In this document: positions 6,629 to 34,318 of the stretch, in pieces
How positions within the stretch are numbered: position 1 is the first letter of the stretch
Layout: every line of letters begins with the position of its first letter
IMG/VR virus record: IMGVR_UViG_3300027969_000196
Coordinates: 1 to 40,139 of that record
From: a virus
Length of the DNA stretch: 40,139 nucleotides
Direction: 5' to 3' (one strand)
Notes under the pieces: model-generated
What the model saw: the letters and a program-made list of their open reading frames with translations, nothing else
Databases searched by the model: none
What the model was told of the DNA's origin: nothing
Program-made: the position numbers and the translations under genes

Positions 6629-7054
6629 CTAAGATTTTAATATATGTGAGCCGTGTACGCGGACTTGAATATGTCCGTTATACCAGTCATCTGATTCTAA
6701 TACTTTATTGAGGAATTGTTCTCTGGCCTCGATGTAAGAGCATTGCGCCTTTGATGTACAGTAGTATAAAATTTCGCGTTTGAAATTTTCTTTGCCTAAG
6801 AGTTCTATGTCTTTAGATAGATTAGGCGAGCTACCGTAGTAGTCCCTCCAGTCACTATCAATTTTGCTTCTAATTTTCTTCTTTTTCTTGCTGCCATTCT
6901 TTAGCTTGACTACTTTGTAGGTAGTTTTTGCAAATTTTGCAAGTTTCTTGCCTATGTACTTTTTGCCAGAGATTGTATTGGTTATCAAATATACGAAGCC
7001 TACGCAGTCTTCTGGTAGTTCTTCTATTTGCGTATCTTGATAAGTCCAATGCAT
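6629..7054 (-). CDS. GIY-YIG family nuclease
   Basis: A 141-residue protein with the GIY-YIG nuclease layout: GFVYLI at residues 19-24 and YIGKK at 33-37, about 10 residues apart, then candidate catalytic Arg70 (DSDWRDYYGS), Glu109/Glu112 (SYIEAREQF) and Asn126 (DWYNGHI). A Lys-rich stretch (KNGSKKKKKIRSK, about 52-64) between them may bind DNA. Stand-alone proteins of this kind are common in aquatic T4-like phages and resemble the Seg endonucleases of T4, which cut DNA and can drive marker exchange. It is the last gene of the gp55-gp47-gp46 operon, starting 3 bases after the preceding stop, which argues for a resident repair or recombination function rather than a recent insertion. Its substrate is unknown. 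Confidence 0.85.
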   Translation of the reverse strand: MHWTYQDTQIEELPEDCVGFVYLITNTISGKKYIGKKLAKFAKTTYKVVKLKNGSKKKKKIRSKIDSDWRDYYGSSPNLSKDIELLGKENFKREILYYCTSKAQCSYIEAREQFLNKVLESDDWYNGHIQVRVHGSHILKS

Positions 7055-7312: not shown

Positions 7313-7500
7313 TTTTTGGCCTTTTTAATAATGTCGTTAGTTGCATCATTAATTTTTGAATCTTGAATAGATCTAAGGTGCAAACGTTCTGCACAGTTCC
7401 TAATGTCATCGTGCAGATTTAAGTCGCCCGTTTCTTCTAGCGTTAACTTTGCAATTTCATGAAGTGCTATAACTGCATCTACAAGTATCATATTTCTCAT
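7309..7500 (-). CDS. Small protein of unknown function (63 aa) coupled to gp46
   Basis: A 63-residue acidic-to-neutral helical protein beginning MRNMILVDAVIALHEIAKLT and containing DDIRNCAERLHLR before a Lys-rich end. It has no membrane segment or signal. The start codon overlaps the gp46 stop in an ATGA (7497-7500), and the following gene overlaps its own stop the same way. This tight coupling and its sensible composition support a real gene despite its size. I do not recognise the family. Its position right after gp46 suggests an accessory role in end processing or recombination, but that is inference from context only. Confidence 0.7.
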   Translation of the reverse strand: MRNMILVDAVIALHEIAKLTLEETGDLNLHDDIRNCAERLHLRSIQDSKINDATNDIIKKAKK

Positions 7501-9275
7501 TCAGTGACCTCCAAGTCATTTGCATAACTTGTGTAACCGTTTTCTTTTATGACTCTTAACACATTGTTAACACGACCAATCAGTTCATCTTTGTGACTGA
7601 TCAAATAAATGTTTTTATTACGTTCTCGAGCCATCTTTTTAAGTACGCTTAGTGCGCCTTCAACGCCACTGGCATCTAATCCGTTGTCGATCAACTCGTC
7701 AATAAACAACAAATTGATATTCTGATACAAACTTTCCCATACATCACGGAATGCCCATGATAATGATAAGATTAAACGATTACGTTCTCCACGACTCAAG
7801 TTGTCAAAGTCTAAATCTTGACCAAGTTGTGTAATCTCCACAGATAGGTCGTTTTGAAACAGCACAGTGTGAGGTAATCCCATTCTATCAAGATAATATG
7901 TAAGTCTATTATTCAAATATGCCAAATTTTGATCAATGATCTTCTTACGGATAAAGCTATCCTTGCTGGTTAACAATTTTAATAGAAAATCTTGATGATC
8001 CCTAATACTTGCTAGTTCATTTACATGATCCCAACTGACTTCTTGTATTGCAGTATTTTTTAATTCGTCGATTTGTTCTTGATAAGGGTCAATTTCATCA
8101 GCCCGCCTAACTAACTGTTCTTCTAAAGTAGTTAAATTATTTTGATGTTTGAGTGCTTGCTCAACAGAGTCATAATATGTATTAGGTCGTCCGTTGATAT
8201 CACCTATAATTGTTAGCTCTTCTTTAACTTTGTTGCAATCTGCTGTTACTTTATCAAGATACTTTTGGGCATCTGTTATATTTTTAGTAGCAGTTGTGGT
8301 AAGTTCTTCGTGTTTATGATCATGCAATGCTTGTTCGCAAGCATGACATGTTTTGTTTGCTAGACTTTCCAGTTCTCGTGTATATTTTGCTACACTTTTT
8401 TCTGCTTGTCCAATTGCAGACTCTAATGTTGCTTTTTCTTTAGTTAAACTTTTTACTTTTTGCGAAACTTCCTCATATACTTTTAATTTTGCGTGTTGTT
8501 CTAATTCTTGTTCAATATCAACACTTAGAAGTTCTTGAATTGCCTTACTGATTTTATCTAAATCTGTAGTTTGTTGAGTGTACCAAGCAGTTTGTCTAGT
8601 AACTAAACTGTCAATACTAAACTGAATCTTTTCATTGGACTTTTTTGTAGCTTCTATTTCAGCACTTTCTTGTATGATTTGATCCTTGGTGTTTTTTGAC
8701 AATTCTTTAAGGGCTTCTGCTTTCTCGCTAAGGATAGTAATACCTAATAGCTGTTCAATAATCATGCGTTGTTCATTGGCCCGCATACTTAAGAACGGCT
8801 CCGTATAAGTGTTTAACGCAACAATGTGTTTGAACATGTCGTGACTCATGCCTAGTAAATCATCCAAGTCTTTCTGCGTTTCACGCATGTCACCTTGTGC
8901 GTCATCGCTTTCTTCAGTATCTTGTTCTTGTCCGTTAACATAAAACTTAAGAATATTAGGTCGGCGACCACGCTCAACACGGTATTCAACACCGTCTTTT
9001 TCAAAATGTAGTGTTACTAACATGTTTTTAGCATTGATTTTATTAATCAAGTTATCTTTTTTAATGTTAGTAAGAGCGTTTCCGTATAAGGCAAAACTTA
9101 ATGCATTAACAATAGTAGTTTTTCCAGTACCGTTACGGGATCCGCTATCGTCACCGCCCTGATCTAAATTTTCACCTAGCACTAGTGTTAGTTGTTCTCG
9201 GCCGAAGTCTACAGCCTGGGTTTGATTGCCCACGCTCATGAAGTTTTTAACTGTTAAATCTTTTATCTTGATCAT
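7497..9275 (-). CDS. 46: Recombination endonuclease subunit gp46 (SbcC/Rad50-type ATPase)
   Basis: A 592-residue SMC-like ATPase that, with gp47, forms the phage Mre11-Rad50 equivalent, resecting DNA ends for recombination-dependent replication. Visible motifs: Walker A ending NGTGKTT (N48 to T54); two coiled-coil arms, about residues 175-300 and 320-400, flanking a zinc-hook CHAC (C310, C313); ABC signature LSRGE near 493-497; Walker B LLFIDE near 522-527; and the H-loop His in LISHKDE near 561. T4 gp46 is about 560 residues, so length fits. The Walker A loop is odd: about ten residues rich in Asp and Gly separate the GEN from the RNGTGKTT, an expansion I recall from cyanophage gp46. The start overlaps the gp47 stop (ATGA), and the downstream small gene overlaps its stop, so the genes are translated as a coupled set. 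Confidence 0.95.
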   Translation of the reverse strand: MIKIKDLTVKNFMSVGNQTQAVDFGREQLTLVLGENLDQGGDDSGSRNGTGKTTIVNALSFALYGNALTNIKKDNLINKINAKNMLVTLHFEKDGVEYRVERGRRPNILKFYVNGQEQDTEESDDAQGDMRETQKDLDDLLGMSHDMFKHIVALNTYTEPFLSMRANEQRMIIEQLLGITILSEKAEALKELSKNTKDQIIQESAEIEATKKSNEKIQFSIDSLVTRQTAWYTQQTTDLDKISKAIQELLSVDIEQELEQHAKLKVYEEVSQKVKSLTKEKATLESAIGQAEKSVAKYTRELESLANKTCHACEQALHDHKHEELTTTATKNITDAQKYLDKVTADCNKVKEELTIIGDINGRPNTYYDSVEQALKHQNNLTTLEEQLVRRADEIDPYQEQIDELKNTAIQEVSWDHVNELASIRDHQDFLLKLLTSKDSFIRKKIIDQNLAYLNNRLTYYLDRMGLPHTVLFQNDLSVEITQLGQDLDFDNLSRGERNRLILSLSWAFRDVWESLYQNINLLFIDELIDNGLDASGVEGALSVLKKMARERNKNIYLISHKDELIGRVNNVLRVIKENGYTSYANDLEVTE

Positions 9276-10285
9276 AGGCTATTATAAATTGCCAATAAAG
9301 TCTTGGCGCTGTAAGTGTCACTTTCAATGCTGACAAGCTGATTACTGACAATGGTGTCAACACTTTCAAATGCTTGAATATCAATGTCTGTATTAATTTC
9401 TACATCCTTTTTCTCGGCAATCAATGTCAATTCTCGAATACTATAATCGCCTAAGAATTTTTCTTTAATAAAACTAGCTTCTTCATAGCTAATGTCAATG
9501 TCTAGTGTAACACGAAGATGTTGTTTGGGCAAGATCAATGTGCTCGCTTCGTCAATTAACCGGCTTAATGTAACAGTTCTAAATGTGGGCTGATTTGGCC
9601 AGTTGTAATATTCTGGTTCCTTGCCCCATTCCATAATCATCATGCCACGGTCGTCGTCCCATGCATCTGCATAGTTGTGCGGAAACGCATTACCAATATA
9701 ATGCATATTTTTACGAACTTGACGTTTATGAAAGTGTCCGCTGAATCCCAATTCGTAATTTGCAAATTGATCCAACTGTAGTTCACCGTGATCCGGCATC
9801 TGTACCATTGCGTTCATAAAGAAGCTGGGCAACTCGAAGTGTCCAAATATATACTTGCCACCTTTCTTGCCTATCTTTTTCCATTCTTCACCCACGAGCC
9901 ACGGACATAAAGTAACGTCGCCGATAGTAGTAGGTTCATGAACAACAGTAATACCAGGAATATATTTTCCAAACTCAACTGAGTGAATATCCCGCTTGTC
10001 TTTGTAATACAAATCATGATTACCAGGGAAAAAGTAAAATGTATTGAACGCCGCACCCAACTTTTCCAAGGCCCGCAAACTATAGTCCATAGTAGTGATG
10101 TTGAGGCTATTCCGATTGTGATGCCAATCACCCATAAAAATTCCAGTATCACAACCTTCCTCCTTTGCTTTAGCAATGTACCAATCTACAAAATCTTCGC
10201 AGTCTTTATTATGTACACTGCTATTTGACTTTAATCCAAAATGAATATCTGTAAAGCAGGCAACTTTTTTAAATAAATTACTCAC
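9272..10285 (-). CDS. 47: Recombination endonuclease subunit gp47 (SbcD/Mre11-type nuclease)
   Basis: A metallophosphoesterase-type nuclease of about 337 residues (T4 gp47 is about 339) that pairs with gp46. The five metal-binding motifs are all present in order: TDIHFG, MGDWHHN, GNHDLYY, FGHFELP and FSGHFHKRQ. I choose the GTG at 10285 because AAGGA lies 7 bases upstream (10292-10296) and because it gives a family-like N-terminus, VSNLFKKVACFTDIHFG. An in-frame ATG at 10300 would add five residues but has no ribosome site. With the GTG start the gene overlaps the gp55 stop by 8 bases (GTGAGTAA). The stop overlaps the gp46 start. The C-terminal 90 residues are the less conserved capping region. 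Confidence 0.93.
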   Translation of the reverse strand: MSNLFKKVACFTDIHFGLKSNSSVHNKDCEDFVDWYIAKAKEEGCDTGIFMGDWHHNRNSLNITTMDYSLRALEKLGAAFNTFYFFPGNHDLYYKDKRDIHSVEFGKYIPGITVVHEPTTIGDVTLCPWLVGEEWKKIGKKGGKYIFGHFELPSFFMNAMVQMPDHGELQLDQFANYELGFSGHFHKRQVRKNMHYIGNAFPHNYADAWDDDRGMMIMEWGKEPEYYNWPNQPTFRTVTLSRLIDEASTLILPKQHLRVTLDIDISYEEASFIKEKFLGDYSIRELTLIAEKKDVEINTDIDIQAFESVDTIVSNQLVSIESDTYSAKTLLAIYNSL

Positions 10286-11123
10286 TAGGCGTTCCTTCAT
10301 TAAATCGTTTTTGTGCGGCAGCGTGTTCGCCTGCTCCAGTTCTACTGTAACTAGGATTCATGCCATTCATTTCTAACATGTCATCTCTAATATTTTGATT
10401 GCGTTTTTCAATGTTAATAATACGTACAAAACTGTTAGTCACCGCCGCAGTAAAATAGGCAAACGGGTTATTACTTTTTGCTTCGTTGAACTGCAACCCA
10501 ATCTGAGTTAGCTGTAATATGGCCTGTGCTCGCATCTCATCGTTGTAGGTATAGCCACGCACATTACCACGAGTGGCATACCGTTCGCATAGTTTAATGT
10601 ACATACGAGCTAGTGTATTAGTAATTTGCCCATGATCTTTGTCAAACTTGCCCTTTTCCAAATCACCTTTCCAGTGACTTTTTCCAACGCACACCAGTTC
10701 GTCTTTGTCATCAAATTTCCAATGTTGGAAAGGTGGAAAGTTAACTTTGTCTCTATGATCTGCTAGACTTTTAGGATTTTTCTTACGAGTATTATTAAGC
10801 GGAATATGATCAAATGTCATGATTCTAAAGACCAAATCTATCTTTTGAATCTTTTTGTAGTCAATTTCACAGTCGGCTTGTTTGACTTTTTCCCCGGCAC
10901 GTTTGCGAGTTTGGTAATCCAAATCGCCTATTCTTTTAGCTTGATTCCTTTTAGCTTCAGCAACTGTGCGTATGTTTATTTTGTCCAAACTAGGCAAAAT
11001 AATATCATATTGGTGATATTCAGGCTTTGCATAGCTTGAATATGTATTTTTGGACTTGTGTATTTCTTCTAGTAAGTCTTTGTTGTTTAAGTAATTTACT
11101 TTCGTTGGTGTTATTATTGTCAT
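10278..11123 (-). CDS. 55: Late-transcription sigma factor gp55, enlarged
   Basis: A 281-residue homologue of T4 gp55, which binds the host RNA polymerase core and directs it to TATAAATA late promoters. The N-terminal VNYLNNKDLL (residues 9-18) matches the T4 NYVNNKELL segment. The C-terminal half, NNPFAYFTAAVTNSFVRII (218-236) followed by the basic NIEKRNQN, matches the T4 NPHAYITQACFNAFVQRI sigma region-2-like segment. T4 gp55 is about 185 residues; here roughly 95 extra residues lie between these blocks (about 40-165), rich in charged and aromatic residues. I see no equivalent of the T4 C-terminal sliding-clamp-binding tail (SLDFLYE type); the protein ends RFNEGTPSE. AGGA at 11132-11135 sits 8 bases before the ATG. 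It is the first gene of the operon behind the sigma-70 promoter at 11146-11174. Confidence 0.9.
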   Translation of the reverse strand: MTIITPTKVNYLNNKDLLEEIHKSKNTYSSYAKPEYHQYDIILPSLDKINIRTVAEAKRNQAKRIGDLDYQTRKRAGEKVKQADCEIDYKKIQKIDLVFRIMTFDHIPLNNTRKKNPKSLADHRDKVNFPPFQHWKFDDKDELVCVGKSHWKGDLEKGKFDKDHGQITNTLARMYIKLCERYATRGNVRGYTYNDEMRAQAILQLTQIGLQFNEAKSNNPFAYFTAAVTNSFVRIINIEKRNQNIRDDMLEMNGMNPSYSRTGAGEHAAAQKRFNEGTPSE

Positions 11124-11145
11124 TAAATGGGTCCTATATAACAGT

Positions 11146-11174
11146 ATTATAAACTACATACATTAAAAAGTCAA
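11146..11174 (-). promoter_or_regulatory. Sigma-70 promoter of the gp55-gp47-gp46 operon
   Basis: On the minus strand: TTGACT (11174-11169), a 17-base spacer, and TATAAT (11151-11146). This is a perfect -10 with a 5/6 -35 at optimal spacing, about 23 bases before the gp55 start. It marks this operon as transcribed by unmodified host polymerase, that is early or middle in infection. Confidence 0.85.
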
Positions 11175-11181
11175 CTAAATA
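11174..11181 (+). promoter_or_regulatory. Late promoter of the baseplate operon
   Basis: ACTAAATA followed by TTAG, 19 bases before the ATG at 11201; six of eight bases match TATAAATA, including the TAAATA core. The ribosome site GAGGG (11189-11193) lies 7 bases before the ATG. The element shares its first base with the -35 box of the divergent sigma-70 promoter, so the two probably cannot be occupied at once. Confidence 0.7.
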
Positions 11182-11200
11182 TTAGCCAGAGGGAACAATT

Positions 11201-12199
11201 ATGGCATTCGATTTAGCAAGTGGGTTATCAAGCGTTTCAAGTGTAGCGCAGACAGCAAATTCTGTATTGCAGACGGGCGCAGGTGTGTTGCGTACAGCGG
11301 CCAATTTAGGTTCGGCACTGAATAATTTATCAAATCCCAGCCAGCTACTCAGTGCAATTCGAAGTATAAATCTTCCATTAGGCGGTGAGGCAATTGGTTC
11401 AATAGTCAACGCAGCAGCCGCATTTGGCGGAACAGATGCTACTAATGATTGGAGAGCAAGACTCAGTATGCCTAGGGGCAGTTTCTTTGATTCAAGCCCA
11501 ATTTTACAACCATTAACTGCCGCAGGCGGACTAGTGTTTCCATACACTCCTACAATTACAATTAGTCACGCTGCAACTTACAATGAAGTTTCAGTAACTC
11601 ATCAAAATTATCAATACATGGCATATCAGAGCAGTAGAGCAAATGCTATTCAAATTACAGGTGAGTTTAATGTTGAAGATTCTGTTCAAGCCAAGTATTG
11701 GATCGCAGCAGTTCACTTCTTACGTTCGGTAACAAAAATGTTCACTGGAGAAGGTGCGTTCGCTGGCAACCCTCCGCCAATTTTAAATTTTAGTGCATAC
11801 GGTGACCACGTGTTTAGAAACGTTCCTTGCGTTGTCACTAGTTTTAGTATGACGCTGCCAAAAGATGTTCAGTATATCAGTACAACTGTAGCAGCCGGAA
11901 GCAGTTTGGGTGAAATTTCTTCACTAGCATCCACGCTGGCCGGCGCTAATTTGGGATCAGTCAGTTCAGCTGCAAGTGTGGTAGCAAAAGCAGGTTCTGC
12001 TTTGAATGCCATCTCAAACATTAAAGATGCTATTGGCGGCGGCATTGCTGGAGGCATGGGAGTTCCAAGAGATAGTCATGTTCCAGTTAAAAGTGATTTA
12101 ACAATTACATTACAACCAGTCTACAGCAAAGAAGCAGTAAGACAATTTAGTTTGCGCAATTTTGTTAATGGCGCTTATGTAAGCAAAGGATACATTTAA
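11201..12199 (+). CDS. Baseplate tail-tube initiator/cap protein, gp48/gp54-like
   Basis: A 332-residue protein of the size of T4 gp54 (about 320) and gp48 (about 364), the two proteins that cap the baseplate and start polymerisation of the tail tube. The N-terminal 75 residues are helical, Ala/Ser/Leu-rich. Residues 85-235 resemble a tail-tube-type beta fold (FPYTPTITISHAATY, then YMAYQSSRANAIQITGEFNV and AVHFLRSVTKMF), with a second Ala/Ser-rich low-complexity insertion around 235-290. The C-terminal block (VPVKSDLTITLQPVYSKEAV, ending NFVNGAYVSKGYI) closes the fold. It opens the rightward late operon, and its stop overlaps the next start (TAATG). I cannot decide between gp48 and gp54; only one such gene is in the window. 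Confidence 0.7.
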   Translation: MAFDLASGLSSVSSVAQTANSVLQTGAGVLRTAANLGSALNNLSNPSQLLSAIRSINLPLGGEAIGSIVNAAAAFGGTDATNDWRARLSMPRGSFFDSSPILQPLTAAGGLVFPYTPTITISHAATYNEVSVTHQNYQYMAYQSSRANAIQITGEFNVEDSVQAKYWIAAVHFLRSVTKMFTGEGAFAGNPPPILNFSAYGDHVFRNVPCVVTSFSMTLPKDVQYISTTVAAGSSLGEISSLASTLAGANLGSVSSAASVVAKAGSALNAISNIKDAIGGGIAGGMGVPRDSHVPVKSDLTITLQPVYSKEAVRQFSLRNFVNGAYVSKGYI

Positions 12200-12498
12200 T
12201 GGCAAAATACACAAATCTAAGTCCTTGGTTTAGAACAACAATTTCAAGAAATACTCTGGATGTATTAACAATCAGACCAGTTAGTTCTGAGGCAGATGAT
12301 TTTCTCTATACTATTGAACCACAATATACATATAGGCCTGATCTGCTAGCGCATGACTTATATGGCGAATCAGCACTATGGTGGGTTTTTATTCAACGCA
12401 ATTTAGATATATTACAAGATCCTATATTTGACTTTATTCCTGGAACTCAAATTTTTATTCCTAAAAATTCAAGTCTTAGAGAAGTTTTAGGAAACTAA
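12199..12498 (+). CDS. 53: Baseplate wedge protein, gp53-like (LysM-type)
   Basis: A 99-residue protein. The segment YRPDLLAHDLYGESALWWVF (about residues 46-65) and the following DPIFDFIPGTQIFIPK match the gp53/LysM-like pattern, in which a short alpha-beta module is followed by a hydrophobic 'xPGTxIxIP' strand. T4 gp53 (about 196 residues) joins the six wedges around the hub; this one is half the size, which I believe is common in aquatic relatives. It overlaps the preceding stop by one base (TAATG), with AAAGGA 9 bases upstream, and it is followed one base after its stop by the next gene. The tight coupling fits stoichiometric baseplate production. Confidence 0.75.
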   Translation: MAKYTNLSPWFRTTISRNTLDVLTIRPVSSEADDFLYTIEPQYTYRPDLLAHDLYGESALWWVFIQRNLDILQDPIFDFIPGTQIFIPKNSSLREVLGN

Positions 12499-14899: not shown

Positions 14900-16389
14900 T
14901 GGCAGAAGAAACCAGAACTGGTATAGGTTCAGAAGGCAATAGCCCTGGACCGTTTTTAGCAAAAGTAATCAGTCACCTTGACCCTACATATATGGGTTCT
15001 TTAGAAGTGCAATTACTTCATGAAGTTGGTAATGATCCAGGATCAGAAGGACAAACTTCAGTAGTAAAATACATGAGCCCGTTTTTGGGTTCAACCAGTA
15101 TTGATTTTGTTGGTGAGGATGAAACATACGACAATGCACAAAAGTCTTATGGCATGTGGATGATACCTCCTGATCCAGGTTCTACCGTAATTGTATTTTT
15201 CATTGAAGGCGATCCACGTAAGGGCTATTGGTTAGGATGCGTTCAAGATGAAAATATGAACTTTATGATGCCAGGATTGGCAGCAACATCATATAATATA
15301 GACGGTGATGAGGAACGTGTGCCAGTCGCTGAATATAATAAAACAGCAATCACATCTGGGCACAACGACAGTACTAAAAATAGAAAGGCGCAGCACCCTT
15401 TTACTAAAATATTATCCAGTCAAGGATTGTTAAAAGACGATATTAGGGGCATAACAACTTCTAGTGCTCGTAGAGAAACACCAAGTATGGTATTTGGGAT
15501 TAGCACTCCCGGACCAATTGACAAGAAAGGTCCTAAAGGATCTATTGGTAAATCTGAAGATGAGATATCTGGAGCATTTGTCAGTCGTCTTGGCGGTAGC
15601 ACGTTTGTTATGGATGACGGTGACGACAAATTTACACGCAAGACCGCAGCAAGTGAAGGCCCGCCAGAATACGCCAGTGTTGAGCAAGATGAAACAGATG
15701 GCGATCCAGCAATTCCCCATAACGAATTAGTTCGTATTAGAACAAGGACTGGCCATCAAATTTTAATGCATAACAGTGAAGATTTGATTTACATTGGCAA
15801 TGCCTCTGGAACAACTTGGATTGAATTAACCAGTAATGGCAAAATAGATATTTTTGCAACAGATAGTATAAGCATTAGAACTAAAGCGGATTTGAATTTT
15901 TATGCCGATAGAGATATAAATTTTGAAGCTAAACGCAATGTTAATATAAAAGCTGGGGTAGAAATGCAACTTGAATCTGGAACAAATTACAATGTTATTG
16001 CTGGAACTAACGGAAAAATTACAATAGGCGGCACAATGGATTTGAATGTGACAGGTGCATATAAAGAAACAGCGGCCCGGATAGATATGAATGGTCCGGT
16101 GGCAACAAAAGCAGTTAGGATGAAAACACATAACTTACCAGATGTTGCTACACAAGGTGCAGATATGACTGAGATGATCTCAATAATGCGTAGAGTTCCC
16201 ACAGCAGAACCATATCCTCAACACGAAAACTTAGACCCAACTAAAGTTACCTCCGTAAAAACCAACAGAGATTCTGGTGGAAGAACCGGCGCAAGTGCTA
16301 CAACTGATATGAGTTTTTCAGGAACAAAATATAAAGAGTATACCACTGTTACTGATACCTTCAGTAAAATACAAGGTGCTGAGGAGTAA
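14899..16389 (+). CDS. 5: Central spike protein, gp5/VgrG-like, without lysozyme domain
   Basis: A 496-residue spike protein. An OB-fold-type N-terminal domain covers about residues 15-125 (GPFLAKVISHLDPTYMGSLE; MIPPDPGSTVIVFFIEGDPR; YWLGCVQDENM), as in gp5 and VgrG proteins. After a linker, TGHQILMHN (about 285) leads into short, regular valine/isoleucine-alternating repeats (GKIDIFATDSISIRTK; INFEAKRNVNIKAG; GKITIGGTMDLNVTG, about 305-390) typical of the triple-stranded beta-helix needle. T4 gp5 has a lysozyme domain between these parts; here none is visible, as in cyanophage gp5. The spike pierces the outer membrane; peptidoglycan digestion must be done by another protein. The start overlaps the preceding stop (TAATG), with GAAGG 7 bases upstream. 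Confidence 0.85.
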   Translation: MAEETRTGIGSEGNSPGPFLAKVISHLDPTYMGSLEVQLLHEVGNDPGSEGQTSVVKYMSPFLGSTSIDFVGEDETYDNAQKSYGMWMIPPDPGSTVIVFFIEGDPRKGYWLGCVQDENMNFMMPGLAATSYNIDGDEERVPVAEYNKTAITSGHNDSTKNRKAQHPFTKILSSQGLLKDDIRGITTSSARRETPSMVFGISTPGPIDKKGPKGSIGKSEDEISGAFVSRLGGSTFVMDDGDDKFTRKTAASEGPPEYASVEQDETDGDPAIPHNELVRIRTRTGHQILMHNSEDLIYIGNASGTTWIELTSNGKIDIFATDSISIRTKADLNFYADRDINFEAKRNVNIKAGVEMQLESGTNYNVIAGTNGKITIGGTMDLNVTGAYKETAARIDMNGPVATKAVRMKTHNLPDVATQGADMTEMISIMRRVPTAEPYPQHENLDPTKVTSVKTNRDSGGRTGASATTDMSFSGTKYKEYTTVTDTFSKIQGAEE

Positions 16390-16397
16390 ATACTACT

Positions 16398-16841
16398 ATG
16401 ACATCAAGCTCACGTTTGTATAATAAAATAACTGTGCCAGGCAAAGACCCTAGGCGTGCTGCGCCTATCCCAAGAACGTATCGGGGATTTAGCACAATTA
16501 GTGCCGACAGTGAAAGCTATACACTGTTTGATTTAGCGTTAATTAAACAGGATATTATTAACCATTTTCATATTCGCCAAGGCGAGCGTTTAATGAATCC
16601 AGAGTTTGGCACAATCATATGGGACTTGCTTTTTGAGCCCTTGACTGAAGAACTAAAGTCTATCATTATTCAAAACGTGGAAACTATTATTAATTACGAT
16701 CCACGAGTACGTGCAGAAAACGTTATTGTAACTGCCTACGACAGCGGTTTACAAATTGAGTGTACACTGACTTACATGCCTTACAATATTTCAGAAACAT
16801 TGCAGTTTAAATTTGACCAAACAAACGGTCTTATTAATTAA
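16398..16841 (+). CDS. 25: Baseplate wedge protein gp25 (GPW/gp25 family)
   Basis: A 147-residue protein of the GPW/gp25 family, the conserved sheath-initiator/wedge component of contractile injection machines. The family core is clear: LALIKQDIINHFHIRQGERL (about 46-65), MNPEFGTIIWDLLFEPLTEE (66-85), and the strand pair VIVTAYDSGLQIECTLTY near 109-126. Its length is close to T4 gp25 (132). It starts 8 bases after the gp5 stop; GAGGAG at 16381-16386 is a strong ribosome site at a slightly long spacing of 11. It precedes gp6, as expected because gp25, gp6 and gp53 form the inner wedge. A TAAATA overlapping the gp5 stop is probably coincidental. Confidence 0.93.
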   Translation: MTSSSRLYNKITVPGKDPRRAAPIPRTYRGFSTISADSESYTLFDLALIKQDIINHFHIRQGERLMNPEFGTIIWDLLFEPLTEELKSIIIQNVETIINYDPRVRAENVIVTAYDSGLQIECTLTYMPYNISETLQFKFDQTNGLIN

Positions 16842-16890
16842 AACCCCATAAAATAAAAACCGCTAAATATACTTGATATAGGAAGCGGAT
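16842..16890 (+). promoter_or_regulatory. Spacer with late promoter before gp6
   Basis: GCTAAATA at 16862-16869, followed by TAC, lies 21 bases before the gp6 ATG. The core TAAATA is intact. AGGAAG at 16880-16885 is the ribosome site. Confidence 0.65.
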
Positions 16891-19800
16891 ATGTCCTCAA
16901 CTGATAGACAAAATAGATTACTAGTAGCAGAAGATTGGAAGCGAGTATACCAGAGCTTCCGAAATGCAGACTTCCAAAGTTACGACTTTGAGAATCTGCG
17001 CCGAGTAATGATTAGTTACTTGCGCGAAAATTACCCAGAAGATTATAACGATTATATCGAGTCAAGCGAGTATCTTGCTTTAATTGACATGATTGCTTTC
17101 TTGGGGCAAAGTATAGCTTTCCGAGTTGATTTGAACGCTCGTGAAAACTTCTTAGAACTTGCAGAACGTCGAGAAAGTGTATTAAGACTAGCAAGGCTTT
17201 TAAGTTATAATGCCAAGAGAAACATTCCTGCCAGCGGACTTCTTAAATTTCAAAGCGTAAGCACAACTCAAACAGTCATTGACAGTAATGGTAGAAATCT
17301 TGCTGGGCAAGTTGTTGTGTGGAATGATCCAGCAAATACAAACTGGTATGATCAATTTATTAAAGTAATAAATTCTGCAACTCCAGCATCTAGCCAGTTT
17401 GGCACCCCAGATGATAAATCAATCGTCTATGGGATTCCAACAGAACAGTATCGATTTCAAACTTATAGTGCTGGTGTACCAGTTTTTGGATTTACAAAAA
17501 CAGTTGATGGCAGAAATATGAATTTTGAAATTGTTAGTACAATTATTGATTCAGGAACTACAATCATTGAGGATGCCCCTCAAGCTGGAAAGACACTATC
17601 TTTCCTATATCGAGATGATGGTAAAGGATCAGCAAGTCCAACGTCTGGGTTCTTCTTACATTTCAAACAAGGTAATCTAAACACTGGAACATTTACTATC
17701 ACGCAACCTAGTACTAATGAAATCATTGACATTGATGCAACTAATGTAAATGACAGTGATGTGTGGTTATATAAGTTAGGTTCAACTGGTGTTGAAAGCG
17801 AGCTATGGGCAAAGGTTCCTAGTTTTGAAGGCAACAATGTTATCTATAACAGTTTGAATAAAAATATCCGTAATATTTACGGAGTAGTTACTCGCAATAA
17901 TGATAGAGTAAGTTTAACATTTAGTGATGGAACATTTGGAACATTACCCCTTGGCACCTTTAGAACTTATTATAGGATTAGTAACGGATTACAATATACA
18001 ATAAATCCTAAAGATATTAGGAACGTTAGCATTGATATTCCATATATTTCAAATGTAGGACAAGCAGAAGTATTAACAATTACACTTGCATTACAAAGTT
18101 CTATTACAAATAGCTCTGCAACTGAATCAAATGCTAGTATTAAACAAAATGCGCCAGCAACATACTATACACAAAATCGTATGATTACTGGCGAGGACTA
18201 TAATATTAGCCCTCTTAGCGTCAGTCAAGAAGTAGTTAAAATTAAAGCGGTTAATCGTACATCAAGCGGCATTAGTCGATATTTTGATTTAGTTGACCCA
18301 ACTGGAAAATATTCAAGTACAAACTTATTTGGCGATGACGGGATTGTATACAAAGAATTGTTTGATGATAGTTTTAGATTTAGCTACTCATCAAGAACAG
18401 ACATTGAAGCAATAATTTATAATCAAATTATTGACGTTCTTTCAGAAACTTCTTTACGTAATTTTTATTATTCAAACTTTAGTAAAATTGCTACAGACAG
18501 TTTAAGTATTTCGTGGTTCCAGAAAACATCTGACACAAGTGAAAGCACTGGCTATGTTGGCGATACAGTTGATTCAGAGCCCTATCGAACTGGTGTTTTT
18601 GCAGCAACTGATTTGCAATATTTTGAACCAGGGGCATTAGTTAAGTTTGTAGCTCCAGCAGGAACTTATTTTTTAAAATCTGAAAACAATAAGATAGTGT
18701 ATGGTGCCGCCACAGTGCCTAACTCTTCAACTGTGCTATGGGCCAAAGTTGTTGGCGTTATTGGCGACGGGACCAATAACGGTACTGGTGTATTATCTGA
18801 TGGTTCTGGACCAGTGACTCTCAATGTAAATATTCCGCAAACTGCAATTGTTTCTCAAATTATTCCTAAATGGCGCACCACTATTGATGCTAACACTATT
18901 AGCTCAATGATAGAATTAATTTATGCTAACAAACCTTTTGGGTTAAGATATGATACAATTTCAAAAACTTGGAAAATTGTATTTGAAGGAAATTTAAATA
19001 TTAAAGATGAATTTAGTTTGGGCAAACAAGGCAATAATACCAATCAACAATTAGATTCAAGTTGGTTGCTATTGTTTACTACTGACACTGAATTTTATAC
19101 AGTAAAAAGTAGACGACTACGTTACATATTTGAAAGTAAACAACAAATTAGATTTTATTATGATTCTTCAAATAAAATATTTGACAGTAGATCTAATTCA
19201 ATCGTCAAAGACAAAATTAAAGTATTGAATGTCAATACTAAACCAGATGTTACATCGGCATTTACATACGACTTAGTATGGGAAATTAACAAAGAATTTG
19301 TTGGTCTTGATGGCTACGTTGATACTAAGAAAATTGAACTATCATTTAGTGACAGCAATGACGATGGAATTGTTGACGACCCAGAGTTGTTTGAAGTGAT
19401 TGTAGATACAGCAACATCGCCACTGACAAAATACATAGTTTTAGAAAGATACGATATTGCAGCTGGACAACAAGATTATAGATATATCAGCAATGATTCT
19501 GATCTTGTGTTAATTTTAACTACTGAGGGAACCGTAGGATCATTTGCTCCGTATGTTAACGGTCAATATTTTTATTTTATTGACACTAGAACAGTTAAAA
19601 AATTAGACAAAGTAGTTGGAAAGTTAACACCGTCATTGGATTATAAAGTTTTTTCTGGTCGAGACGGTTTAAAATTCCAGTACGTGCATAGTGCAGATTA
19701 TGAAACACGTATTGATCCAGGACTGAGCAACATCGTTGACTTGTTTATCCTAACAAGAGAATATGATACAAAATTTAGACAATGGATTTTAGGAAATCTA

Positions 19801-20346
19801 ACTACAGAACCACTACCATCCAGTACTGACCAGTTATCACTGTCGTTATCCCCGTCTTTAAACACAATTAAATCAATTAGTGATGAGATTGTTTATCACC
19901 CAGTGAGGTATAAAGTGTTATTTGGATCTAAAGCATCTGCTGATGTTAGAGCAGCATTTAAAATTATTAAAAATGCAGAGCAAACAATTAGTGATAACGA
20001 AATTAAAGCCAACGTATTAACAGCAATTAATGAATTTTTTGCTTTAGAAAATTGGGACTTTGGTGATAGTTTTTACTTCTCTGAATTATCAGCGTATGTC
20101 ATGAATCGAACTTCTCCGTATCTAGTAAATTTTGTTATTGTTCCTAGACAAACAAATTTAAGTTTTGGTAGCTTGTTTGAAATTAAATCAGAAAGTGACC
20201 AACTCTTTATTAACGGAGCAACAACTGACGATATTGAAATTATTTCAGGCATAACGTCGAGTGTCATTTCAGCTTCAGGAAATCTTGCATCTAGCTCAAA
20301 TGTTACATCACAACAAACTATTACAAGTAAAAGCGGGAGTTATTAA
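16891..20346 (+). CDS. 6: Baseplate wedge protein gp6
   Basis: A 1151-residue wedge protein. The N-terminus is diagnostic for gp6 of T4-like phages: FRNADFQSYDFENLRRVMIS, LRENYPEDYNDYIESSEYLA, then LIDMIAFLGQSIAFRVDLNA and LARLLSYNAKRN (residues 25-110). A large beta-rich middle section follows, and the C-terminal 150 residues again resemble gp6 (FKIIKNAEQTISDNEIKANV, ENWDFGDSFYFSELSAYVMN), the part that forms the inner ring with gp25 and gp53. T4 gp6 is about 660 residues, so this homologue is almost twice as long, with the extra sequence in the middle. In T4 two copies per wedge drive baseplate opening. Its stop overlaps the next start (TAATG). Confidence 0.93.
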   Translation: MSSTDRQNRLLVAEDWKRVYQSFRNADFQSYDFENLRRVMISYLRENYPEDYNDYIESSEYLALIDMIAFLGQSIAFRVDLNARENFLELAERRESVLRLARLLSYNAKRNIPASGLLKFQSVSTTQTVIDSNGRNLAGQVVVWNDPANTNWYDQFIKVINSATPASSQFGTPDDKSIVYGIPTEQYRFQTYSAGVPVFGFTKTVDGRNMNFEIVSTIIDSGTTIIEDAPQAGKTLSFLYRDDGKGSASPTSGFFLHFKQGNLNTGTFTITQPSTNEIIDIDATNVNDSDVWLYKLGSTGVESELWAKVPSFEGNNVIYNSLNKNIRNIYGVVTRNNDRVSLTFSDGTFGTLPLGTFRTYYRISNGLQYTINPKDIRNVSIDIPYISNVGQAEVLTITLALQSSITNSSATESNASIKQNAPATYYTQNRMITGEDYNISPLSVSQEVVKIKAVNRTSSGISRYFDLVDPTGKYSSTNLFGDDGIVYKELFDDSFRFSYSSRTDIEAIIYNQIIDVLSETSLRNFYYSNFSKIATDSLSISWFQKTSDTSESTGYVGDTVDSEPYRTGVFAATDLQYFEPGALVKFVAPAGTYFLKSENNKIVYGAATVPNSSTVLWAKVVGVIGDGTNNGTGVLSDGSGPVTLNVNIPQTAIVSQIIPKWRTTIDANTISSMIELIYANKPFGLRYDTISKTWKIVFEGNLNIKDEFSLGKQGNNTNQQLDSSWLLLFTTDTEFYTVKSRRLRYIFESKQQIRFYYDSSNKIFDSRSNSIVKDKIKVLNVNTKPDVTSAFTYDLVWEINKEFVGLDGYVDTKKIELSFSDSNDDGIVDDPELFEVIVDTATSPLTKYIVLERYDIAAGQQDYRYISNDSDLVLILTTEGTVGSFAPYVNGQYFYFIDTRTVKKLDKVVGKLTPSLDYKVFSGRDGLKFQYVHSADYETRIDPGLSNIVDLFILTREYDTKFRQWILGNLTTEPLPSSTDQLSLSLSPSLNTIKSISDEIVYHPVRYKVLFGSKASADVRAAFKIIKNAEQTISDNEIKANVLTAINEFFALENWDFGDSFYFSELSAYVMNRTSPYLVNFVIVPRQTNLSFGSLFEIKSESDQLFINGATTDDIEIISGITSSVISASGNLASSSNVTSQQTITSKSGSY

Positions 20347-23300
20347 TGGCTGAACAACAAAACGAATACGGACTTCCTATTGGCAAGGGCGAAAAACGCC
20401 GCACTGCAAAATTGTTGCCAAGATTTTATAGAACAGAATCTAACAAGAAGTTTATTCAAGCCACCATTGATCAGTTAACACAGTCTGGTACAGTAAAAAA
20501 GTTAAACGGTTTTATTGGCAGACAAAATGCCAAAGCTGTTACAACTAATGATGTTTTTATTGAAGAACCAACGTTAGACAGACAGCACTATCAACTAGAG
20601 CCTGCGGCAGTAGTTAAAGATACACTGGGAAATATTACATTTTTTAAAGATTATATTGACTATGTCAATACTGTTGATGTATTGGGCGGCATAACTAAAA
20701 ACCATCAAAAATTAAATAAACAAGAATTTTATTCTTGGAATCCACATATAAATTGGGATAAATTTGTCAACTTCCAACAATATTATTGGATGCCATATGG
20801 CCCAGCAGTTATTAAAGTACTTGGCCAACAACAACAAGTTACAAGCACGTACACTGTGCAACTATCTGACGAAGGAGACAACAGGGCATACTTGTTCACA
20901 CCAGATGCGTTGACTAGAAATCCCACGTTAACTTTGTATAGAGGTCAAACATATAAATTTGAAATCACTGCCCCTGGAGAACCTTTTAGTATTAAGACTC
21001 AGCGCCAAGCAGGTGAGTTGTATAGATATACAGATGGTGTTGATTTGTCTGCGGTTGAATCTGGAACAATTACATTTACAGTTCCGGTAGATGCTCCTAA
21101 TGTTCTATATTATGTCAGTGAAAACTCGCCAGATACTGGCGGTGTTTGGGAAATATACGACATTGATGAAAATACTGTAATTGACGTTGCATCTGAAATC
21201 ATAGGTAAAAAAACGTACACGTTATCAACTGGTGTTGAATTAAGCAACGGTATGAAATTGACTTTTGGTGGAAATGTAAGTCCTGCATTATATGCAACTG
21301 GGTCTTTTTATGTAGAAGGTGTAGGCGAACAAATAAAATTAGTTCCAGAATCTAAATTAGAAATTGTATCTGCATATTCAGCAGCGAGTCAAGTTTTATT
21401 TGATGATGCTGGTTTTGATTCAATGCCATTCAGCGATGCAACATCATTTGCTGGACAGAAAGATTACATTACAATTAACCGTTCAAATTCTGACGGAAAC
21501 CCTTGGAGCAGATATAATCGTTGGTTCCATCAAGATGTTATATCTAAAAGCGCAGAAGCTGCTGGGATACCAATTGAACTAGATCAAACTAGACGTGCAA
21601 CACGACCAATTATTGAATTTGAATCAAATCTTAAATTGTTCAACTTTGGCTACGCATCTAAGAATGATGTTGATTTAATTGACACATTCACAACAGATGT
21701 ATTTTCGACAATTGAAGGATCTTTGGGATACAACGTTGATAGCGTTCCGTTAGCCCAAGGGCAGAGAATCTTATTCACAGCAGATTCTGATTCATTAGTC
21801 AACAACAAGATTTTTAAAGTGACATTTATCACAGTTACACCTGTGGGTGGTGCTGGACCAGTTAGACAAATTCACCTAGTTGACGAGTCTGATACAGACG
21901 CCCTATATGGCGAATCTGTTGTTATTAGAAGTGGTAGATTAAATCAAGGAAAAATGTATTGGTTCAATGGAAGCACATGGAAATTATCACAACAAAAAAC
22001 AACAGTTAATCAAAAGCCATTATTTGATTTGTTTGACAGTGACGGTGTATCTATTTCTAATAATACAATCTATCCAGGGTCTACGTTTTTAGGTAACACT
22101 ATCTTTTCATATAAAGAAGGTTCAGGAGTTACTGATGCAGTGTTAGGAATTCCGTTGTCCTATAGGAATATTAGTAACATTGGTGATATTGTTTTTACCT
22201 TTGATTTATTACAAAATACATTTTCCTATAAAGACGGTGTTGATGTTGTAACAAAGAATACTGATTCTGCTTTCCTTAAAATCATTACGGGATTAGATGC
22301 CGGAGAATATGTTAACGGTTGGATCACTAATCAATTAGAGAATACCCAGCCCATTGTTAGAATATTTAAAAATAGCGGGCTTATCAACAACTTCCCAATT
22401 GATGTTTATGATGACATTGGGAATCTAAGTGATTTAGAAGTGAGAGTGTATGTTAACGGTAAAAGGATTGACAAGTCTTTCTGGTCAATCGTTGATGCAG
22501 TACGATATAAAAAAGTCGTAATAAATTCAAATCTTATTAACATCACGTCTGACGATGTAATTACTTTACGTTGCTTCTCATCACAAGATAAAAATGCTAA
22601 CGGTCATTATGAATTGCCAATAAACTTTCAAAATAACCCGCTAAACAACAACGTTAATACTTTTACATTAGGAGAAGTTATTGACCACGTTGATTCAATT
22701 GTTGATAATCTTCCAACGTTTAATGGAACATATCCGGGCAATAATAATCTTAGAGATCAAGGATTCTTATCTACATTTGGAACAAAATTTGTACAGCATA
22801 GTGGACCAGTTAACTTTGGATTATATCATTTAACATCAAAAAATTCTAATATTGTTAAAGCATTGAATCAAACCAGAGACGATTATGGTAGATTCAAAAG
22901 AAATTTTATTAGTGTTGCAACAAGTATTTCAGATGACTTGCCTACTAAAGAAATCGTTGATAAAATTATTTTAGAAATTAATAAAGATAAACCAAAAACG
23001 TTTCCATATTATTTTAGTGATATGGCAGGAACTGGTGCTGCAACTAAAAATGATTATAAAGTTGTTGATTTTAGAATTAAAACATATCCATTGTCTTCAG
23101 CATTTTCGTTAAACACATTATCAAATAAAGCAGTTAACATTTATGTAAACGGCGTTCAATTGATTTACTCAAAAGATTACTCTTTTGATGACACTGGATT
23201 TGTTATTATATCAGATACTTTTAATTTAGTAGACAATGATATAATTACCATTTATGAGTATGAAAGTACGGATGGTTGCTTTATTCCACCAACGCCAACA

Positions 23301-26300
23301 TCTTTTGGAATCTGGCCTAAATTTGAACCTAAAAAATATTTAGATACAACCTTAGTAACACCACAATATGTTATTCAAGGGCATGACGGTAGTATTGTTG
23401 TTGCATACAACGACTATAGGGATAACTTAATTTTAGAAATAGAAAAACGCATTTTTAATAATATTAAAGTTGCATATGACTCAACTATTTTTGATATATT
23501 TGATTTTATTCCAGGTTACAATAGAAGAACAGATTACAGCTTACAAGAATTTAATGAAGTATTAGCCCCTAGTTTTTATCAGTGGGCAACGCTAGTTGAC
23601 GGTGATTTTACTAAACCAATAAGCTATACTAATAGTAATCCATTTACATACAATTATTCAAAGAACACATCTCCTGATGGGACTGCATTGCCTGGATACT
23701 GGAGAGGAATATACAAACATATATTTGACACTGACCGAATTCACTTGTGTCCTTGGGAGTCTTTAGGGTTTAACATTGAACCAACTTGGTGGCAAGATGT
23801 ATATGGACCAGCACCATATACAAGTGATAATTTAATATTATGGAATGACTTAAAAGATGGTATTACTAGAGAACCTGGTAAGCCGCTAACAAGAAATATT
23901 AAGTTTTCAAGACCTACATTGGCAATTATGCCGCCTGTTGATGAAATGGGCGAATTACTAGACCCAATAGCAGCAAATATTGTTCAAGGTAACATTAAAC
24001 CTCAAATGTCAGATGCTTTCAAATTTGGAGATTACAGCCCAATTGAATCAGCATGGAGAAGAAGTTCGTTCTTCCCATTTAGTTTTGTGCTAGCATCAGT
24101 TTTAATGCAACCAAATAATACATTGGGTTTATGTATAGACAGAAGTAGAATTATTCGAAACAATACTGGCCAGTTAATTTATAAAGACACTGGATTAAGA
24201 TTAAGATTAACAGATTTAACTTTACCATCAACTACATCTGATAGTGAACGTGTGTTGACTGCCGGCTTAGTAAATTATATTGTTGACTATATTCTTAGTG
24301 ATAATTTAAAATCATTATCACAATATAAGGTTGATTTAACAACTATGACAAACTATCTAAGTCATAGATTAGGTGGGTTTACCAGCAAAGAAAAGTTTAA
24401 ATTAATTTTAGATAGTAAAAGTCCAACGGCAAATGCAGGAGTATTTGTTCCTCAAGAAAACTATACAATCTTTTTAAATACTTCCAGTCCAGTTAAAAAG
24501 CTAACATACAGCGGCGTAATTGTCACTAAGATTTTAACATCAACGGGTGAAGGATATGAGGTAAAAGGGTACAATCAAAAGACACCGTTCTTCTATTATT
24601 ATCCGTGGACACAAACTGGTAATGTTATTAATGTTGGCGGTATTAGTGAATCTTATATTGAGTGGGTGCCTGGCCAACAATATATTGTTGGAAACGTTGT
24701 TCGATACAATAATGCTTATTACAGAGCCACACAAAATCATACATCTCAAGATAATTTTAGTTCCACTGAATTTCAAAAATTAGCCAAGTTACCTATCATT
24801 GGTGGACGAGACGCATCCCTGAGAAAATTGTGGGATAGAACTCCAACGATTGTTAATTACGGAACTGTGTATGATACAGTTCAAGAAGTAGTTGATTTTT
24901 TACAAGGTTATGGTGAATATTTAAAAGATCAAGGATTTGTTTTTGACGATTATAATACAAATTTAAAATCTGTAGCCTCATGGGAAACTTCTGTTAAAGA
25001 ATTTATGTTCTGGACAACTCAGAACTGGAGTGCTGGAGAAGATAAGTTTGTTGACTGGTTACCTAATAGGACTTACAAAGCTGGCGTTATTGTAAAATAC
25101 AACGGTGATTACTTTTCTTCTAAAATTGATCATACAACTAGTACAATATTTCAAACAGAATTGTACAATAAATTAGCCAGTTTATCTCAAGATGGTGCTA
25201 GTGTTATTGCACTGAGCCCTTCCGCACTTGGTTTATCAATGAGATTAACTTATGCTGTGATTGATGATATTAGAGATCAGTTTAATGAATATGAAATCTT
25301 AAAAGCAGATGGCGCAAAATTTGATCAAAACTTTTTAAACCACACTCGAGAAGATAACGAATTTTCTTTTAGCCCACGTATTGATGGGATAGGAATTTAT
25401 GGTGCTGGCTTTTATCTAGTACAAAAAGAACATGTACTAATTATTGATAATATAACACAGTTTAATGATACAATTTACAATTTAGAAGCTGGATATAAAC
25501 AAGATAGGATTAAAGTTTCTGGTTATCGTACAGTTGGTTGGTATGGCGGATTTGATATTCCTGGATTTGTATTTGATCAAGCTGATATTACAGAATGGAA
25601 TTCTTGGACTGATTACAATCTAGGCGACATAGTAAAATATAAAGAATTTTATTATAGTGCAGAAAACTTCCTTCCAGGAGTTGAAACATTTAATCCTAGC
25701 AGCTGGATTCGATTAGAAAACAAACCAACTTCTGCGCTACTTCCTAACTGGGATTATAAGGCAGAGCAGTTTACTGACTTTTATGATTTAGAATCTGATA
25801 ATTTTGATGCTGGGCAACAGCGTGTTGCTCAACACTTAGTTGGATACCAAAAAAGACAATACTTAGAAAACATTATTAAAAATGATGTAAGCGAATATAA
25901 ATTTTATCAAGGTATGATTCCTGAAAAAGGTTCTGCTAACTCATTGAATAAATTATTTGATGTACTAAGTGCTGAAGGCCAAGAAAGTATTGATTTTAAT
26001 GAAGAATGGGCTGTACGTGTTGGACAATACGGCGGTTCAGAAGCATTTGACGAAATTGAAATTTCTTTAGATGAGTCACTGTTTAAAACTAATCCACAAG
26101 CATTTGAATTAACAAACAGCATTGATCCTTCTGTAGTGGATTTTGTAATTCGTCAGACGCCAAATGATTTATATTTAAAACCGTCTGGATATAACAACAA
26201 CCCTTGGCCGTCAATAACAAATTATAAGCCGTATCTAAGAACTCCAGGCCACGTTAGGTATGATCAAGTTGCACTTAACGTTGACTCGTTGACTGACATT

Positions 26301-33659: not shown

Positions 33660-33679
33660 AGTAGCAGTTATTAATACTG

Positions 33680-33687
33680 AATAAATA
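33680..33687 (+). promoter_or_regulatory. T4-type late promoter before the 203-aa gene
   Basis: AATAAATA followed by TAC, 19 bases before the ATG at 33707. It gives the gene after the giant its own transcript. The ribosome site is weak (GAGAG at 33696-33700). Confidence 0.7.
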
Positions 33688-33706: not shown

Positions 33707-34318
33707 ATGCAAAGTAAAGACTTAACAGGAATACACGTAGAAGGTCATATCAAGATCTGGAATCCAGAATCTAATGAAATTTTCGTGAATAAACGTAATG
33801 CAATCCATTATGAAAATATCAGCGTCGCCTTGGCGCAGAGTATAGCTAACTCAGGGCAAGGCTTCATATATGAAATGGCGTTTGGCAACGGCGGAACTGC
33901 TGTTGATCCAACAGGCATTATTACATATTTGACTCCAAATAGCACTGGCACAAACGCTAGTTTATACAATCAAACATACAGCAAAGTAGTTGATGACCGA
34001 AGCGTTTCCAACGTTGATCCAGTTAGAAACTACATTGAAACCCGTCACGTAACTGGTACTAACTACACTGATGTGTTTATTACTTGTTTACTAGATTACG
34101 GTGAAAACATTAGTGGACAGTTGGCTTTTGACAATACAACTGACTCAGAAAGTCCTGCAGTTTTTGATGAATTAGGTTTAAAGAGCTACAGCTCAACTGG
34201 ATCTAGTTTGTTATTGACTCATGTAATTTTCCACCCAGTACAAAAATCATTGAATAGATTAATCCAAATTGATTATACAGTTAGAATACAAAGTTTAACT
34301 GGCATAGCCGGAGCATAA
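33707..34318 (+). CDS. Virion structural protein of unknown role (203 aa)
   Basis: A 203-residue, beta-rich protein starting MQSKDLTGIHVEGHIKIWNP, with NEIFVNKRNAIHYENISVAL and the Gly-rich GFIYEMAFGNGGTAVDPTG (about residues 57-75). I recall this N-terminal pattern, a strand, then 'x-x-KxNAIHxxN', then 'xxFGNGGT', from baseplate or tail proteins of other myoviruses, but I cannot name the family. It occupies the place of gp8 in the T4 order, although it is shorter than T4 gp8 (about 334). It is led by its own late promoter and followed one base after its stop by the first fibre gene. A wedge or fibre-attachment role is inferred from position only. Confidence 0.55.
   Translation: MQSKDLTGIHVEGHIKIWNPESNEIFVNKRNAIHYENISVALAQSIANSGQGFIYEMAFGNGGTAVDPTGIITYLTPNSTGTNASLYNQTYSKVVDDRSVSNVDPVRNYIETRHVTGTNYTDVFITCLLDYGENISGQLAFDNTTDSESPAVFDELGLKSYSSTGSSLLLTHVIFHPVQKSLNRLIQIDYTVRIQSLTGIAGA

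Follow-up and report, generated by a model that had tools for sequence, protein, structure and literature searches.

Predicted interleaving of divergent early and late promoters between a gp55-type sigma factor gene and a baseplate operon in a clade of giant T4-like phages

The DNA analyzed here, called the window, comprises the 40,139 bases of an IMG/VR virus record. Two ORFs, at 10278 to 11123 on the minus strand and 11201 to 12199 on the plus strand, diverge from a 77-nt spacer (11124 to 11200), and the features recognized in and around this spacer are collected in Table 1. Downstream of the leftward gene, which codes for a gp55-like late sigma factor, lie genes for gp47/SbcD-like and gp46/SbcC-like proteins that presumably belong to the same early operon, while the rightward gene opens a baseplate operon. 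The window also holds a single ORF of 4437 codons (20346 to 33659) in the baseplate/tail region and a small ORF (6629 to 7054) matching an NAD-synthetase-labelled PHROG and homing endonuclease PHROGs.

Table 1. Genes and predicted promoter elements of the gp55-baseplate region and related sites in the window
Feature	Coordinates	Strand	Basis or remark
SbcC/gp46-like nuclease subunit	7497..9275	-	PHROG_77 1.2e-102
SbcD/gp47-like nuclease subunit	9272..10300	-	PHROG_100 1.1e-68; same order in named jumbo phages
gp55-like late sigma factor, 281 aa, T4-type sigma2 domain	10278..11123	-	PHROG_12791 1.9e-75, PHROG_234
Predicted early promoter, -10 TATAAT	11146..11151	-	ATTATA on the plus strand, 134/148 clade loci
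Putative late upstream element TAAACTACATACATTA, pseudo-dyad TTAAMTACGYASTTAA	11150..11165	+	De novo motif of non-gp55 late promoters
Predicted early promoter, -35 TTGACT, 17 bp from -10	11169..11174	-	TTGAC kept in all but one of 104 aligned loci
Predicted late promoter, -10-like element CTAAATA	11175..11181	+	TAAATA class upstream of genes
AGAGGGA, Shine-Dalgarno-like, baseplate-side gene	11188..11194	+	Sequence inspection
Virion structural protein, baseplate operon gene 1	11201..12199	+	PHROG_12050 1.8e-46
gp53-like baseplate wedge subunit	12199..12498	+	PHROG_7145 2.1e-27; PF11246 at cut-off
Weaker copy of the bipartite promoter before wedge gene 16891-20346	TTAAAACCCCATAAAA 16838-16853, TAAATA 16864-16869	+	Dyad score
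Putative bipartite late promoter before ORF 33707-34318	TTAAAGTAGCAGTTAT 33656-33671, TAAATA 33682-33687	+	Score 12.2

The preliminary description had named the leftward gene gp55, an identification borne out by its match to a late-sigma PHROG (1.9e-75) and by its predicted fold. With phmmer, the protein aligned to T4 gp55 (7d7c_F) over residues 5 to 26 and 151 to 241, and an AF2 model superposed on the same chain over residues 10 to 267 with a Z score of 12.0. The modeled protein thus appears to be a gp55-type late sigma factor with a T4-like sigma2 fold, which would be expected to recognize late promoters. Compared with T4, the gp55 of the jumbo clade carries an insertion of ~125 residues (at about 27 to 150) that separates the N-terminal helix from the sigma2 core. 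A Foldseek search of the PDB with residues 27 to 152 returned nothing significant; the insertion may still adopt a known fold. A search for a gp45-type clamp (PF09116) in seven records found none, and gp33 and gp45 were likewise not found in phage CBB (PMC5259590).

In the 77-nt spacer, the preliminary description had placed a near-consensus promoter, TTGACT-17-TATAAT, directed toward gp55 and a late element directed toward the baseplate genes, and the sequence confirmed both. The former shares 11 of 12 bases with TTGACA/TATAAT and lies 22 bp before the gp55 ATG. Its hexamers are separated by a distance within the 16 to 18 bp of host sigma70-type promoters, and no other site in 20 kb scores above 10/12. 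In a 372-kb relative (G001), 50 of 78 sigma70-type sites fall within intergenic DNA, which makes up 7% of that genome. When spacers of the same composition were generated at random, a sigma70 site scoring at least 11/12 and [AC]TAAATA occurred together with p ~5e-5, and the abutting pair was obtained in none of 20,000 simulated spacers.

The assignment of the rightward element to a class of late promoters was also upheld, TAAATA being enriched upstream of genes on the sense strand. In the 372-kb relative, TAAATA occurred within 60 nt upstream of genes 97 times in sense and 34 times in antisense orientation, and the sense copies were concentrated 16 to 26 nt ahead of the start codon. At the locus, CTAAATA precedes the baseplate-side ATG by 19 nt, in keeping with a TATAAATA-like -10 element upstream of late genes. 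Other intergenic copies in the window precede, on the plus strand, the genes at 16891, 33707 and 37728 and the ORF that follows 39217, as the present one precedes that at 11201, and, on the minus strand, the genes whose starts are at 6113 and 4041. In 74 of 392 late sites from 20 clade records, the ATG comes only 4 or 5 nt after TAAATA, which would put the start codon at +1 or adjacent to it. A distance of 3 nt was seen at one of these sites and 6 nt at two. The leaderless-type families include a gp25-like wedge gene (window 16398; 16387 to 16398), the terminase large subunit, the tail tube and an HNH protein.

According to the preliminary description, the two promoters touch by sharing the base at 11174. 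The contact itself stood: the elements abut at 11174/11175, and this junction is nearly invariant among relatives. The shared base did not. Although ACTAAATA can be read at 11174 to 11181 on the plus strand, the clade consensus is (A/C)TAAATA, preceded by a position with almost no information, so that the late core begins one base further on and the sharing is trivial. We also rejected the possibility that GTCAA, the plus-strand face of the -35 element, is part of the late motif. It is absent before every other intergenic TAAATA of the window, and among 125 late sites only those at gp55 have it immediately before NTAAATA, which assigns it to the early promoter. ATTATA and GTCAA are particular to gp55, and a sigma70-like gp55 promoter is still seen in several relatives whose promoters are separated, so that the early promoter is not an artifact of the late elements.

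What the preliminary description missed is a late upstream element within the early promoter, which makes the predicted overlap deeper than a single base. The 17-bp early spacer was unexpectedly conserved, and a scan with it returned matches at loci distant from gp55, ahead of late TAAATA elements. We therefore rejected the idea of a middle-promoter class having the gp55 spacer in common, the spacer motif belonging to late promoters. An expectation-maximization (EM) motif search was run de novo on 20 records (2.1 Mb), taking the 35 nt upstream of each of 360 late sites and leaving out all gp55 sites. It yielded TTAA[AC]TACGCA[CG]TTAA, for the most part located at -26 or -25 relative to the T of TAAATA, with a log-likelihood of 259 compared with 69 to 77 in mononucleotide shuffles. 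As orthologues inflate this likelihood, the family counts matter: the 46 members of the motif fall in 15 gene families. Exact positional k-mer enrichment gave no clear signal for this degenerate dyad, where EM gave one.

The dyad was found at -26 in 65 of 392 late sites, whereas a control offset gave 2 of 392; among TAAATA not located before genes, 5 of 1764 had it. It reached a score of at least 5 at this offset in 73 of 78 gp55 spacers (13.0 in the window) and in all 20 orthologous sites of the baseplate wedge family (window 16891 to 20346), whose column profiles carry information mainly at the dyad and at TAAATA. It was also present in 18 of 19 members of the gp55-adjacent family, 7 of 7 of the tail-tube family and 10 of 19 of the family of ORF 33707-34318; column profiles of four other late families lacked such an upstream element. 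The motif correlates with its own reverse complement in register (r 0.80) and not when shifted (at most 0.2), and 10 bp separate its end from TAAATA in 39 of 58 measured distances. Because the dyad recurs ~10 bp upstream of other TAAATA elements, and T4 late promoters have no upstream or -35 element (PMC2988020), a subset of late promoters in this clade is predicted to be bipartite, and the late promoter in the gp55 spacer is a variant rather than of the plain T4 type. Genome-wide, the dyad showed no enrichment over a reversed control in RaK2, 121Q, PA5oct or Atu_ph07.

At the gp55 locus, the 16-bp late upstream element lies inside the 17-bp early spacer and overlaps the early -10 by 2 bp. Read in the late orientation, the order is early -10 (reverse complement, 11146 to 11151), late dyad (11150 to 11165), early -35 (reverse complement, 11169 to 11174) and CTAAATA (11175 to 11181). 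The two promoters are thus interleaved on opposite strands within 36 bases, facing apart.

Conservation of the overlap in relatives, proposed as a check in the preliminary description, was strong across the clade, which is represented by uncultivated contigs. GTCAA[C/A]TAAATA was exact in 103 of 106 relatives with a gp55 at least 70% identical; one of the other three loci has ATCAAATAAATA, with a single change, and two have AGTCAATAAATA, in which the late element is one base closer (-1). The distance from the -10 to TAAATA was as expected in 145 of 148 loci, and the outer distances varied, from 15 to 26 nt between TAAATA and the baseplate ATG and mostly from 17 to 32 nt between the -10 and gp55. 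Likewise, 78 dereplicated spacers showed hardly any variation in the -10 block, the -35 or TAAATA, with flanks at ~0 bits. In 24 of 25 clade records (11/12, then 13/13), GTCAAMTAAATA occurred in exactly one copy, and we accordingly rejected a general early/late module repeated elsewhere in the genomes. A DNA-only scan of viral contigs returned at least 80 loci. Among the 80 matches listed, 63 are at gp55, the others being unrelated sequence or clipped by contig ends, and the dyad is present in 60.

Relatives with well-separated elements, which the preliminary description had named as evidence against its proposed switch, do exist in the PA5oct clade, though neither in the window's own clade nor in the RaK2 clade. 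By tblastn, gp55 is 44% identical in PA5oct-type phages, 42% in Atu_ph07/Phosso and ~37% in 121Q/RaK2/GAP32-type phages. Most named relatives have the same divergent baseplate and gp55-gp47-gp46 order, Atu_ph07 and Phosso having an additional nucleotidyltransferase-type gene in between. On the gp55 tree, the gap between the elements is 0 in the window clade (-1 in one row), 2 to 4 bp in the RaK2 clade and 0 by sequence in Atu_ph07; in the PA5oct clade the elements are ~20 to 80 bp apart (22 bp in PA5oct) or no TAAATA was found. The tight overlap is thus, as far as these sequences indicate, specific to the clade, and interleaving is no general requirement for controlling gp55, since PA5oct-type phages separate the elements. 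The Atu_ph07 gp55 spacer (L084/L149) keeps the dyad and GTCAACTAAATA beside an inserted cytidyltransferase gene, without a good -10 at the matching distance, and is possibly a remnant of the interleaved promoter. In gp55 spacers of the PA5oct clade (e.g., L155, L159 and L173), TATAAAA-N6-GTTTAT precedes GATAAATA at about the distance of the dyad, which suggests a diverged upstream element.

The reading we favor, with a probability of about one half, is that the locus is an interleaved divergent early/late module whose polymerases exclude each other, so that late occupancy lowers gp55 transcription in a self-limiting switch. Early in infection, host sigma70 polymerase would read gp55-gp47-gp46 leftward. 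Once gp55 had accumulated, gp55-RNA polymerase, perhaps with a factor at the dyad, would open the late promoter and read the baseplate genes rightward, and its occupancy would reduce gp55 transcription, the factor limiting its own production.

Transcription is predicted to start near 11139 for the early promoter, from sigma70 spacing, and near 11187 for the late promoter, from T4 spacing with TAAATA at -11 to -6, i.e., ~48 bp apart. A sigma70 complex would presumably cover ~11119 to 11179, if it has the usual sigma70 footprint. A late complex would cover ~11148 to 11207, including the early -35, on the basis of T4, in which crosslinks of gp33 map to -39 and -36/-35 and a further 13 bp upstream are contributed by the clamp (PMC2988020). 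With T4 positions the two complexes would have ~30 bp of their footprints in common; the T4 values may not hold for these phages, since no gp45-type clamp was found in the seven records. Given the distance between the starts and the presence of each promoter's essential elements inside the other's footprint, the geometry makes it very likely, T4 footprints being assumed, that the two polymerases cannot occupy the site together. According to a passage of PMC4207663 citing other work, where two promoters overlap, RNA polymerase can occupy just one of them. With the 22-bp gap of PA5oct, overlap of the polymerases would be marginal. Negative feedback by late polymerase in infected cells is a further step that we infer from this arrangement, and one point against it is that the early promoters of T4-like phages may already have been shut down in some other way when the late period begins.

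A fuller version, which we put forward only tentatively, combines such a self-limiting toggle, contained in 36 bp at the sigma gene, with a bipartite T4-type late promoter whose dyad would be read by the gp55 holoenzyme, possibly through its inserted domain, or by a new activator. The notion that the insertion reads the dyad is weakened by RaK2-type gp55, which has the insertion in alignments although its adjacent late promoter has no dyad.

The location of the late upstream element inside the early spacer also led us to consider that a dimeric phage regulator bound to the 16-bp dyad represses gp55 and activates the baseplate genes in the manner of phi29 p4 at A2b/A3, polymerase exclusion being secondary. 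The dyad is placed for both roles, lying between the two early hexamers and, for the late promoter, at about -30; it is close to its own reverse complement, the copy at G006:5224 being a perfect palindrome (TTAACTACGTAGTTAA); and its preferred 10-bp distance to TAAATA is joined by similar sites near other promoters and start codons. A fixed distance would, however, equally fit direct contact with the holoenzyme, and the dyad is found in only a few late operons. We consider this regulator a serious rival, though less probable than the favored switch. Dyads also occur just downstream of TAAATA or near Shine-Dalgarno sequences of other genes (G016:13223, G013:72667 and G007:6151; e.g., GATAAATATATACGTAGTTAA), as if they were operators of a phage regulator. 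In addition, divergent late/late promoter pairs share or flank one dyad-like element at G002:141768/141801 and G017:21547/21565.

Alternatively, the arrangement might reflect genome compaction only, the early promoter being silenced otherwise before late times and the overlap having no regulatory effect. Intergenic DNA amounts to just 3 to 7% of clade contigs, the internal spacing that each promoter requires would keep an interleaved arrangement fixed after it had arisen, and PA5oct-type phages manage without one. Against this, of the strong sigma70 sites surveyed across seven records, that of gp55 alone abuts a late element exactly and recurrently, and the inner block is unchanged in loci with longer outer spacers; we regard pure compaction as a live though unlikely alternative. 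Coupling by supercoiling, in which negative supercoils from early transcription help the late promoter open, or a parked sigma70 polymerase at gp55 keeps it shut until replication, is very improbable even with both variants taken together, as it would not by itself require interleaving, despite the divergent predicted starts 48 bp apart and the preference of T4 basal late transcription for supercoiled templates (PMC2988020).

The favored switch resembles several known systems in part. With T4 it shares the TAAATA-type -10, the sigma2 fold of gp55 and the late structural genes, and it differs from T4 by the dyad in a subset of promoters, the ~125-residue gp55 insertion, the frequent C before TAAATA at gp55 and the gp45 clamp, which was not found in the seven records. 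Adjacent early and late promoters with regulator sites over the early elements are known from phi29 (A2c/A2b versus A3, with p4; PMC3100819), and the gp55 spacer shows a similar adjacency with candidate regulator sites between. However, the phi29 late promoter uses host polymerase and p4, whereas the late promoter here is expected to need the phage sigma factor encoded by the facing early gene, and we identified no p4 homologue or other dyad-binding protein. In pLS20, the divergent Pc and Pr promoters overlap and RNA polymerase has been proposed to occupy one at a time (PMC4207663), but that system serves plasmid conjugation rather than phage timing, with no alternative phage sigma factor and with the repressor/activator Rco and DNA looping. 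Closest are the CBB/GAP32/RaK2-type jumbo phages, which have the gene order and ATAAATA late motif of the window clade; a late class with ATAAATA and an RpoD-like promoter ahead of gp55 had already been predicted in CBB, and the available portion of that paper does not discuss an overlap of promoters (PMC5259590). These phages differ by an early -35 of another type, a gap of 2 to 4 bp rather than 0 and the lack of a dyad at the gp55 site. No description of interleaving with an upstream dyad was found in the literature searched, whose coverage was incomplete, and the upstream element is apparently undescribed. The conserved, sequence-defined module, which couples the gene for the late sigma factor to that factor's own predicted target promoter, offers a small and directly testable way into late-gene timing in giant T4-like phages without recognized gp33 and gp45.
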